From Palleronia pontilimi (GTDB taxonomy: Bacteria; Pseudomonadota; Alphaproteobacteria; Rhodobacterales; Rhodobacteraceae): a DNA stretch of 64,000 nucleotides. Every line of letters starts with the position of its first letter. Position 1 is the first letter of the stretch. Positions 33,509 through 36,826 of the stretch are shown here, in pieces. The stretch spans positions 1 through 64,000 of the forward strand of contig NZ_JAEKPD010000010.1 of assembly GCF_016412875.1 (NCBI RefSeq). Reading direction: 5' to 3'. The notes beneath the pieces are model-generated. The model searched no databases and was not told the DNA's origin. It saw only the letters and a program-made list of their open reading frames with translations. Position numbers and translations under genes: made by a program.

Positions 33509-33734
33509 GATTTGTTTCCCCGCCAATGCCGTAACCGAACGCGGATCGCGTTTGGCGTCAACACACCAGATATGTGTGCCCGGTGTCCATGTCGTCTAGC
33601 GACGCAATTGCGTCGATCGCGTGTCATCGGCTCGGTGCGGCCCGACCTGCGGGGTGACCGGCGCGTTTCCGGGGCGGCGCGGCGTCCGATCCGCCCCATG
33701 GACAAGCGTCGAAAACCGCCCCATATCCTGCCCC

Positions 33735-35537
33735 ATGACCGACCTCAAATACATCCGCAATTTCTCGATCGTGGCGCATATCGATCACGGGAAATCCACG
33801 TTGGCCGACCGGCTGATCCAGCTTACCGGCACCGTGGCCGAGCGGGACATGAAAGAGCAGCTGCTCGACGCCATGGATATCGAGCGCGAGCGCGGCATCA
33901 CCATCAAGGCCAACACGGTGCGGATCGAATACCCCGCGCGTGACGGCCACACCTACGTGCTGAACCTGATCGACACGCCGGGCCACGTGGACTTCGCCTA
34001 TGAAGTGTCGCGATCCATGAAGGCGGTCGAAGGCTCGCTGCTGGTGGTGGACGCGAGCCAAGGGGTCGAGGCGCAGACGCTGGCCAATGTCTATACCGCG
34101 ATCGAGGCGGACCACGAGATCGTGCCGGTCCTGAACAAGGTGGACCTTCCGGCGGCCGAGCCCGACCGCGTCCGCACCCAGATCGAGGACGTGATCGGCA
34201 TCGAGGCGCACGACGCCGTGGAGATCAGCGCCAAGACCGGCCTGGGCATTCCGGAGGTGCTGGAAGCCATCGTCACGCGCCTGCCGCCGCCCCATGGCGG
34301 GGATCGGGACGCGCCGCTGAAGGCGATGCTGGTGGACAGCAAGTACGACCAGTACCTGGGCGTCATCGTCATCGTCCGCATCATCGACGGCGTTCTGAAG
34401 AAGGGCGACCGCATCCGCATGATGAAGACGGGCGGGACCTATGACGTGGACGATGTGGGCGTCTATCGCCCCGCCATGACGCCGGTGAAGGAGCTGGGCC
34501 CGGGCGAGATCGGCTACCTGAACGCGTCGATCAAGCAGGTCCGCGACACCCGCGTGGGCGATACGATCACCCACGAAAAACGCCCCTGCGCCGCGCCGCT
34601 TCCGGGCTTCAAGCCCTCCGTCCCCGTCGTCTTCTGCGGCCTCTTCCCCGTCGACACCAACGACTTCGAGGACATGCGCGATGCCATCGAAAAGCTCGCC
34701 CTCAACGACGCGTCCTTCACCTCGGAAATGGAAACCTCCGCCGCGCTCGGCTTCGGGTTCCGCTGCGGCTTTCTGGGCCTGCTGCACCTCGAGGTGATCC
34801 GCGACCGGCTGGAGCGGGAATACGACATCGACCTGATCACCACCGCGCCGTCGGTGATCTATCACATCTACCAGCGCGACGGCACCATGACCGAGCTGCA
34901 CAACCCCGCCGACTTCCCCGATCCGTCGACCATCGACCACGTGGAAGAGCCGCGCATCAAGGCGACGATCCTGGTGCCCGACGAATACCTGGGCGACGTG
35001 CTGAAGCTGTGTCAGGACCGGCGCGGCATCCAGATGGACCTGACCTATGCCGGGACGCGGGCGATGGTCGTCTATGACCTGCCGCTGAACGAGGTGGTGT
35101 TCGACTTCTACGACCGGCTGAAATCGGTGACCAAGGGTTACGCGTCGTTCGACTACCAGATGATCGGCTACCGGCCCGACAAGCTGGTGAAGATGCAGAT
35201 CCTGGTCAACGACGAGCCGGTGGACGCGCTGTCGATGATGGTCCACGCCGACCGGGCCGAGGGGCGGGGCCGTGCGATGTGCGAGAAGCTGAAGGACCTG
35301 ATCCCGCGCCACATGTTCAAGATCCCGATCCAGGCCGCCATCGGAGGCCGCGTCATCGCCCGCGAGACCCTGTCGGCCATGCGCAAGGACGTGACTGCGA
35401 AATGCTACGGCGGCGACGCCACCCGGAAGAAGAAGCTGCTGGAGAAGCAAAAGGCCGGCAAAAAGAAGATGCGCCAGTTCGGGAAGGTCGAGATCCCGCA
35501 GGAGGCGTTTATTAACGCGTTGAAGATGGATGGGTAG
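33735..35537 (+). CDS. lepA: Elongation factor 4 (LepA)
   Basis: 600-residue translational GTPase acting on the ribosome (back-translocation or biogenesis factor). G1 is [15 protein letters not shown], the switch region has [16 protein letters not shown]3 is [17 protein letters not shown] and G4 is VLNKVDLP. The LepA-specific C-terminal domain is intact (QRRGIQMDL-like region, then [20 protein letters not shown] and the Lys-rich [18 protein letters not shown]). Start ATG 33735; the frame upstream is a chance extension. The sharp fall in G+C begins right after its stop. Confidence 0.97.
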
Positions 35538-35590
35538 TAATCAGCATTAACCGTATCAACATACAGTCTTAGAAGCAGTCGACTTCGTAA

Positions 35591-36007
35591 TTATTCCCGA
35601 GGGTTCTGTCTACATATGTCTTCATACGTAAGCTCACGCTCACCATCTGTATCGCATATTCGAAGCTCTTCGATCTTGAGAGTCTTAACAAACCTACTGT
35701 CGAACTTTCTCGGGAGTCCATTCGTCAGATAGTGGCACTTGTCACCTTCCGATTCATCACGCACGAACGTTGCCCCGTAGAACCGGGCAAGTTCAATCCG
35801 CGCGAAGACTGCTGGCTCTCCGGATATTCTAGGGGAATAGCACTTTCGACAGTGCTCGCATACGGAACTGCTTTCGCGGTGCGCGCAGGTTTCATCGATA
35901 ACCGATAATCCATCGCGGGAGGTGGAGATTGCTGTGCTATTAAATCTGCCACGCGCATGACTGAAGTGGTCTGGATGAAATAGCCTGATAATCCACTCTC
36001 CTTCCAT
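35591..36007 (-). CDS. Hypothetical protein in A+T-rich island (138 aa, Cys cluster)
   Basis: 138 residues starting MEGEWIIRLFHPDHFSHARG. It has a Ser/Arg-rich STSRDGLSVIDETC segment, a Cys cluster CAHRESSSVCEHCRKC that could bind a metal, and a charged C-terminus (KIEELRICDTDGERELTYED). A strong Shine-Dalgarno (GAGG/AGGA, 6-7 bases) precedes ATG 36007. The reading frame looks more protein-like here than the overlapping frame of the 219-residue gene, with which it shares 283 bases. No family name recognised. Its base composition is unlike lepA and the downstream genes, suggesting transfer. Confidence 0.65.
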   Translation of the reverse strand: MEGEWIIRLFHPDHFSHARGRFNSTAISTSRDGLSVIDETCAHRESSSVCEHCRKCYSPRISGEPAVFARIELARFYGATFVRDESEGDKCHYLTNGLPRKFDSRFVKTLKIEELRICDTDGERELTYEDICRQNPRE

Positions 36008-36384
36008 CCTAGGTCCTCAAGATACCTTCTGACGAAGGCATAATCTGCATTCTCTCGGATGAGGAGGTCCTCGTCATCACGTTCCTCATAAACATCAATA
36101 ATTCCATCGGCGGAAACTGCAAAATCGACGACCTGTTCGCCGCGAATACCGCTTACGACAATTCCACCATCAGTTCTCGGAAAGACCTCAATCGTATCGA
36201 GTTCCATGGAGTTCATTGTGCTTACGACACGCAGTGCTGAGTTAACAGACGCAATCGTGGCGGCGTGCCCTTTACCATAATGCCAGCCATCAGGTCTGTT
36301 ATAGAAAGAAAGAACCCTATCAACGGCTTTTTGGACCTTTGAGGGTGAGTTCGATTCTAATGATGCAAAGACTGCTTTGTTCAT
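35725..36384 (-). CDS. Hypothetical protein in A+T-rich island (219 aa; C-terminus doubtful)
   Basis: Residues 1 to about 130 look like a genuine folded domain (DRVLSFYNRPDGWHYGKGHA, IEVFPRTDGGIVVSG, VVDFAVSADGIIDVYEERDD, FVRRYLEDLGW). The remaining 90 residues are Ser/Pro/Arg-rich and overlap the 138-residue gene in another frame, so they look like read-through of a lost stop or the result of an indel. ATG 36384 overlaps the preceding gene's stop as ATGA, so the pair is coupled. No function recognised; no catalytic motif seen. Confidence 0.65.
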   Translation of the reverse strand: MNKAVFASLESNSPSKVQKAVDRVLSFYNRPDGWHYGKGHAATIASVNSALRVVSTMNSMELDTIEVFPRTDGGIVVSGIRGEQVVDFAVSADGIIDVYEERDDEDLLIRENADYAFVRRYLEDLGWKESGLSGYFIQTTSVMRVADLIAQQSPPPAMDYRLSMKPARTAKAVPYASTVESAIPLEYPESQQSSRGLNLPGSTGQRSCVMNRKVTSATI

Positions 36385-36659
36385 TTCTTCGTGCCATCGT
36401 ATGCATCGCGAAGAGTTTCCATCGGCATGATCCTATTTCCCGTGAGCTGTTCGATCTGGGTTAAGGCTGCAGTAATTTCGACCATCAATGTCTTGGCTGT
36501 CGTGAACGACATGTGGATCTGAGTGTGAGGAACCCCATCAACCATAAGAAGAAGGTTCATATCCGAAAGCGAACCAGCGAGGTTGAAGCCATTTGTGTAG
36601 ACTTGCTGCACTTCAACGTGCCGAGGCCCCATGCCCTCTGCTAAGTCTTTATCGGACAA
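36381..36659 (-). CDS. Small DUF3467-like hypothetical protein
   Basis: 92 residues. The pattern VQQVYTNGFNLAGSLSDMNL, a beta segment (LLLMVDGVPHTQIHMSF) and a C-terminal helix TTAKTLMVEITAALTQIEQL resembles the small DUF3467 family, although this is a judgement by eye. It is the first gene of the three-gene A+T-rich island, and its TGA overlaps the next gene's ATG by 4 bases. Start ATG 36659. The function of DUF3467 proteins is unknown. Confidence 0.7.
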   Translation of the reverse strand: MSDKDLAEGMGPRHVEVQQVYTNGFNLAGSLSDMNLLLMVDGVPHTQIHMSFTTAKTLMVEITAALTQIEQLTGNRIMPMETLRDAYDGTKK

Positions 36660-36826
36660 CTAATAATCCCCACATGCGCGATTTCCTGAGATTGTGATAC
36701 ATCACGCTACCAGTTTCAAGCGCATAAGCTAACTTAGGATGAACTGCACGGACACATATAGTTCAAACAGCAAGCGTAGGGTGAGAATTCACGGCGAACC
36801 GCCCGCTGACCGCAGCCGCTTACCAC

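Follow-up and report, generated by a model that had tools for sequence, protein, structure and literature searches.

The closest described relative of the island examined here is PDC-M32, a pair of genes (M32A and M32B) that PADLOC lists only as a phage-defence candidate. When 200 genomes of the phylum were searched with the PADLOC M32A model, five M32A genes were found. By eye, an M32B-like gene followed M32A in four of the five, whereas the fifth (L025) showed no such gene of 90 codons or more. In three of the loci (L022-L024) inspection by eye also places hsdM-like genes on one side of the pair and hsdS-like genes on the other, and PADLOC named both genes of L022, the one pair that was scanned. 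Seven M32 pairs were compared in all, including three added from plasmids and one that lies behind lepA in another genus (G933). Six of these pairs have M32A-M32B overlaps of 4 nt (three pairs, each with an RTGA stop/start junction), 8 nt (one pair) and 11 nt (two pairs), and the seventh pair, that of G933, has an ATGA junction. Thus, a 4-nt RTGA junction was found in four of the seven pairs examined.

Junctions of this kind are familiar from gene overlaps at large. In the gene set of PMC3887535, an overlap of 4 nt is the most frequent kind, and 87% of the overlaps in the phase that concerns us here, phase 2, are short. Fully established long overlapping genes in bacteria are few, according to PMC9927249. 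The locus that we describe resembles PDC-M32 in its gene order and strand and departs from it in the length over which two of its genes overlap.

An AT-rich gene trio behind lepA

The window is the whole stretch of DNA that was analysed, 64 kb in length. Directly past the lepA stop codon (position 35,537) the G+C content falls from 0.63 to 0.47-0.50, and it recovers by about 36,800, as an earlier note on this DNA had described. The island (35,538-36,800) is about 48% G+C against 67% in its flanks, and the lowest 500-nt value anywhere in the window outside the island is 0.568. Three small ORFs, g1, g2 and g3 (92, 219 and 138 residues), occupy the island. All are encoded on the minus strand and converge on lepA, 3' end to 3' end (Table 1). 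The earlier note had called three same-strand genes of these sizes and an ATGA overlap between g1 and g2, and both are present. It missed that g2 and g3 do not lie side by side: they share 283 nt, each reading them in its own frame. Its DUF3467-like label for the 92-residue protein did not hold, as Pfam gave no family at an E value of 1 or below for g1, or for g2 or g3, and searches of NCBIfam and PHROGs with the three proteins gave nothing convincing. Around the island, repeats amounted to two short direct-repeat families and a single weak inverted pair. Two promoter-like sites stood there against 1.5 expected, and no terminator-like site was found.

Table 1. Features of the lepA-flanking island, in window coordinates
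Feature	Coordinates	Strand	Basis or remark
lepA ORF	33621..35537	+	Pfam LepA_C and GTP_EFTU; its 3' end bounds the apparent hotspot on the left
AT-rich insert at the apparent lepA hotspot	35538..36800	.	composition; G+C drop after lepA in relatives
g1, 92 aa, TTG start, no DUF3467 match	36381..36659	-	ORF
g2, 219 aa, folded domain and predicted disordered tail	35725..36384	-	ORF; start in ATGA junction with g1
g2 predicted folded domain, residues 14-132	35989..36345	-	AlphaFold2: blocks of residues 21-130, mean pLDDT 86-95
g2 tail, residues 133-219 and stop, wholly within g3	35725..35988	-	pLDDT <50 throughout; open in 9/9 loci
g3, 138 aa, M32B-like, Cys/His set, tentative ADP-ribosyltransferase-like fold	35591..36007	-	ORF; hhalign; model
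g2/g3 overlap, 283 nt, g3 in -1 frame of g2	35725..36007	-	kept in 9/9 loci
ATGG: g3 start ATG on the TGG codon of g2 Trp127	36004..36007	-	M32 pairs often have RTGA there
SD-like GAGG before g3, within g2	36015..36018	-	predicted pairing energy -5.9 kcal/mol

The genes of the trio recur together. We count nine distinct g2-g3 loci in at least two classes: the window, L002, L003, L007, L008, L009, L014, L016 and L032 (L005 and L008 are the same contig, as are L004 and L009, and each contig was counted once). In all nine, the G+C content of the trio lies below that of its own flanks. A g2 search of 60 relatives returned a single positive, the source genome itself, and a search of 385 genomes of the class returned six rows, five of them true with the source genome included. 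The sixth, L006, was dropped as a false PAS-kinase match. With a g3 profile, the source genome and one genome of another class (G477) were found among 398 genomes of the phylum, and one further genome (G804) among 389 of the class; profile searches with g3 also brought L007 out of a genome contig collection and L014 out of viral contigs. Five weak rows of the g3 profile (E 0.003-0.01) were discarded, four of them with stops inside the match.

Other searches added no loci. Around the positive genomes the g3 profile found only those already known (2 of 16, 2 of 11 and 1 of 48 genomes). By tblastn, plasmids gave no match for g1, g2, g3 or the g3 of L007, and phages gave none for g2, the g3 of L014 or M32B. 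A single-protein scan of the genome contig collection yielded no relative, viral contigs yielded none with the g1 profile or the L016 protein, and the L014 protein found itself only. The earlier note had named two observations that would speak against its reading, namely, conservation of the genes in all close relatives and failure of the genes to co-occur elsewhere. Neither is what we see: the nine loci hold the genes together, and the 13 congeners searched yielded no match to g2, so the trio is not conserved throughout the genus.

An alignment of g1 with three relatives (four members) contains a conserved HMSFTTAKT stretch, and its sole Pfam match is to DUF7801, in one member and at an E value of 0.047. 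Two further g1 proteins match BssS below the BssS cut-off. Judged by eye, a g1-like ORF is clear upstream of g2 in seven of the nine loci, plausible in L016 and absent from L009. The small ORF that precedes g2 in L009 (5320-5574, G100) differs and looks unrelated to g1, and thus the first gene may be exchangeable.

Relation to PDC-M32 and predicted folds

How the trio relates to PDC-M32 was judged by profile comparison. The folded domain of g2 aligned with the C-terminal domain of M32A by hhalign at 95.9% (E 6.2e-9), and g3 aligned with M32B at 54.8% (E 1.2e-4), a match that covers the first half only and is weak taken alone. Three mismatched control pairs reached at most 0.8%, with E values of 0.066 or worse. 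The PADLOC PDC-M32A model matched g2 of the window weakly (E 0.0014, profile positions 264-348 of 384) and g2 of L016 at 2.3e-6; the PADLOC M32B models did not match g3 of the window, L007, L014 or L016. Gene order and strand are common to the two systems, g2 corresponds to the C-terminal domain of M32A and g3 resembles M32B. The N-terminal 250 or so residues of full-length M32A are missing from g2, in which about 20 residues precede the domain. Moreover, the invariant Cys/His set of g3 is not seen in aligned M32B sequences, g1 is an extra gene beyond the A and B genes, and overlaps of 4-11 nt in the M32 pairs stand against 220-298 nt in the trio. We conclude from these alignments that the trio is probably related to PDC-M32, yet it fails one of the defining features of that system.

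The folded domain of g2 ends where g3 begins, as AlphaFold2 assigns high confidence to residues 21-130 and low confidence to residues 133-219, and the tail is predicted to be disordered. The best Foldseek row for the domain was the integron cassette protein VCH_CASS14 (3imo; probability 0.89, E 0.089, Z 5.5). There is no match in sequence, and any likeness in fold may reflect only a common arrangement, with Mediator, frataxin and other rows standing at like Z. PDB sequence searches with g1, g2 and g3 profiles gave nothing convincing.

For g3, the predicted model has a pLDDT of 86 and a pTM of 0.82, and the best Foldseek row was CC0527 (E 0.095, probability 0.63). The best of the realigned Foldseek rows, to which the Z values of both g3 and g2 refer and outside which other families are possible, reached a Z of 4.2 over 94 residues with an rmsd of 3.9. 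The better realigned rows were mostly tRNA 2'-phosphotransferases (Tpt1/KptA) or other proteins of the ADP-ribosyltransferase fold, a fold that Tpt1/KptA, CC0527 and similar rows presumably share. The model is thus suggestive of an ADP-ribosyltransferase-like fold for g3. Compared with known proteins of that fold, however, g3 reaches a Z of 4.2 at most, the catalytic signature was not identified in it, and it carries an invariant Cys/His set. That set consists of Cys41, Cys50, His52, Cys91, His92 and Cys118, each invariant in nine of nine g3 proteins, and may bind a metal; Arg8 is likewise invariant in all nine.

The long overlap of g2 and g3

The overlap of g2 and g3 is long, out of frame and conserved. 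In all nine loci both frames are open, the overlap spans 220-298 nt and g3 lies in the -1 frame of g2; long overlapping pairs were recognized by both frames being open and kept across relatives, and that is what the nine loci display. The g1-g2 junction is of the RTGA kind (ATGA), like that of coupled genes elsewhere. The phase of g2-g3 is the same as at such junctions, where RTG lies over the TG of TGA, but coupled genes share 4 nt there, whereas g2 and g3 share hundreds of nucleotides in each of nine loci. At the corresponding spot the trios have RTGG in eight loci and ATGT in one. Because the trio has a sense codon where M32 pairs often have TGA, we infer that a stop was lost at an RTGA junction, and the overlap most likely arose by a change of RTGA stop/start to RTGG.

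Such a change would have altered how the two genes are translated. Once the stop was gone, g2 would read on through g3 and gain, in the window, a disordered tail of 87 residues, and ribosomes translating g2 would pass the start of g3 without terminating there. If they do so, there would be no termination-reinitiation of g3, and g3 would be expected in smaller amount than g2. Most likely, g3 would then be translated from its own SD-like site and RTG start inside g2, which are present in nine of nine loci. The strength of the SD-like site was compared with synonymous shuffles and gave P values of 0.02-0.51 per locus (0.51 in the window) and a combined P of 0.0032 for the nine loci. The overlap recurs in nine divergent loci, and its likely mutational origin, RTGA to RTGG, can be seen; because that origin is visible, one can test directly how losing the stop affects translational coupling.

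Alternatively, the two frames might be joined in one product. Programmed -1 frameshifting would fuse the g2 domain to g3, with separate g3 as a minor product, and it would account for g3 lying in the -1 frame in all nine loci and starting at the end of the g2 domain. A heptamer of the form X XXY YYZ occurs in the g2 frame in only one of the nine loci (L009), however, and frameshifting was rejected as the main reading for that reason. Moreover, every locus offers g3 a start and SD-like site of its own, and M32A and M32B are separate genes in all seven pairs examined. We consider frameshifting very improbable, and separate initiation of g3 is the reading that we carry forward.

Why the overlap has been retained can be answered in two ways. 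It may be a neutral relic: after a single loss of the stop, the g2 frame would have stayed open by chance, since the codons of g3 leave few stops there. This explanation concerns the overlap only, is compatible with a defence role for the trio, and in our judgement has close to an even chance of being correct. The g2 frame is open for 65-93 codons beyond the first conserved g3 motif in the nine loci, at P values of 0.01-0.51 for single loci, and openness in a single locus means little because the third frame of L032 is likewise open (82 codons, P 0.004). The low pLDDT of the tail also fits a relic. The similarity of tail amino acids was reached by none of 1,000 shuffles, but that of a control frame was reached by none of 300. 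A similar excess in the control frame leaves no clear sign of selection on the tail residues, and we rejected tail conservation as proof of function. Finally, PMC3887535 explains abundant long overlaps without selection, albeit in phase 1, whereas g2-g3 is in phase 2.

Against a relic, the openness of the g2 frame across loci gave a combined P of 0.004 by within-gene synonymous permutation and of 0.044 by codon-usage draws, whereas seven M32B genes taken as controls gave 0.95. Moreover, none of the nine loci has a stop at the junction, even though a single G-to-A change gives TGA and residue 2 of g3 varies, and PMC3887535 also invokes selection against overlaps of more than 60 bp. Perhaps read-through of the overlap is kept by selection. 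Either the tail itself or its translation might set the ratio of g2 to g3, either by hindering g3 initiation or as a degradation signal, and the trio would be a defence module with dosage control by a conserved long overlap. We think this possible but rather doubtful.

The lepA 3' end and the role of the trio

The island is one of many AT-rich inserts at this address. In 13 congeners, lepA homology stops at the stop codon or up to 7 bases before it; in one of the genomes (G012) lepA is followed by an ordinary 479-nt gap. Across 14 genomes, 22 of 40 of the 500-nt windows within 1.5 kb after lepA fell below 50% G+C, against none of 195 at 1.5-9 kb. With a criterion of 8 points, a drop in G+C after lepA was found in 10 of 14 congeners and in 17 of 29 genera, the window being in both counts; the family loci were taken one per genus, with 58 genomes matched, 30 loci taken and one too short. 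Across the family, the lepA 3' end thus looks like a hotspot for AT-rich cargo of very small size, and in a limited literature search we met no earlier published description of it. The comparison of intervals downstream of lepA that the earlier note had proposed supports horizontal acquisition, with AT-rich, partly defence-annotated and differing cargo in many relatives.

Some of the cargo resembles defence genes. For 10 congeners, a single cargo protein per genome was scanned with PADLOC, and four matched at an E value of 0.01 or below: PDC-S31 (1.4e-16), RT-Protease_XI (5e-10, protease part only), PDC-S59 (1e-6) and, weakly, a SIR2-type protein (3.5e-4). The other six had no match. Ten proteins from nine of the 16 other AT-rich family loci gave matches in four loci, namely, RT_UG13a (5e-103), M32A with M32B (2.4e-41 and 9e-27), PDC-S59 (1e-12) and RmrA (6e-6, N-terminal part only), and none in five. 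Given the M32A and M32B match, one genus carries an ordinary M32 pair behind lepA, at the site where the overlapped variant lies here. The hotspot may be a simple address for compact defence-type genes, several of them without a family match, and it is, with the conserved overlap, the part of this work that most merits following.

What the trio does is approached through its anatomy and its neighbours. Computation supports the three-gene layout, the conservation of the out-of-frame overlap, the similarity of g2 to the M32A C-terminal domain and the hotspot. From them we lean, by a modest degree, towards a compact module of the defence type that was acquired laterally, is a distant relative of PDC-M32 and sits in the cargo hotspot at the lepA 3' end. 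In such a module g3 would be the active component, given its tentative fold and Cys/His set, g2 would be its partner or inhibitor, restraining or directing it, and g1 would be accessory. The earlier note had proposed a horizontally acquired small system. Acquisition of a compact, defence-type system agrees with congeners that lack g2, genes that recur together and cargo that differs and is partly defence annotated; that the trio protects against phage is something we infer.

Several observations favour defence: the M32A/B pair at the lepA site, the PADLOC matches in cargo, one copy of the trio beside prophage-type genes and one beside a type I restriction-modification locus. The first of these copies, L014, has terminase, HNH and IS1595 transposase genes in its vicinity. 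The second, L002 (L033 3931-6029, G069), lies between the 5' end of hsdM and a 272-nt, 90% identical copy of that region. Counting against defence are the six of 10 and five of nine cargo sets without a PADLOC match and the at least four of nine trios (L003, L007, L008 and L009) with ordinary-looking genes nearby by eye, such as ferredoxin reductase, DNA glycosylase, trpS and pucC. The relation to M32 is weakened as an argument because PDC-M32 is itself a candidate, because the PADLOC M32B models miss g3 and because g2 lacks the N-terminal part of M32A. The argument from fold is weakened in turn by rows that reach only a Z of 4.2 and a Foldseek E value of 0.095.

Alternatively, the trio might be a cassette of the toxin-antitoxin or addiction kind that persists for its own benefit, with g3 as toxin, g2 as antitoxin and no dedicated anti-phage role. 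Small coupled genes of foreign composition would suit such a cassette, as would the ADP-ribosyltransferase-like fold rows for g3, and one plasmid M32 pair sits among genes annotated as RelE/ParE and VapBC. The M32 genes that we found, however, often lie inside type I restriction-modification operons, by eye, and the lepA site also houses a DRT reverse transcriptase and PDC-S31/S59. We regard a self-serving cassette as unlikely and keep to the defence-type module.

The AT-rich cargo behind lepA is about 1-1.7 kb and looks different in each genome. Membrane-type cargo without a family match occurs in L061 (G006) and L076, and G009 carries an 8xMP octameric membrane protein (L056 376-1152; Pfam E 1.6e-25). 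The weak SIR2-type match is to a SIR2-like protein of G008 that starts 14 nt behind lepA (L062 237-1265). The M32A/M32B pair of G933, joined at its ATGA junction, lies at L097 2046-3544, and the RT_UG13a match after lepA in G914 is a DRT-type reverse transcriptase (L087 162-1529).
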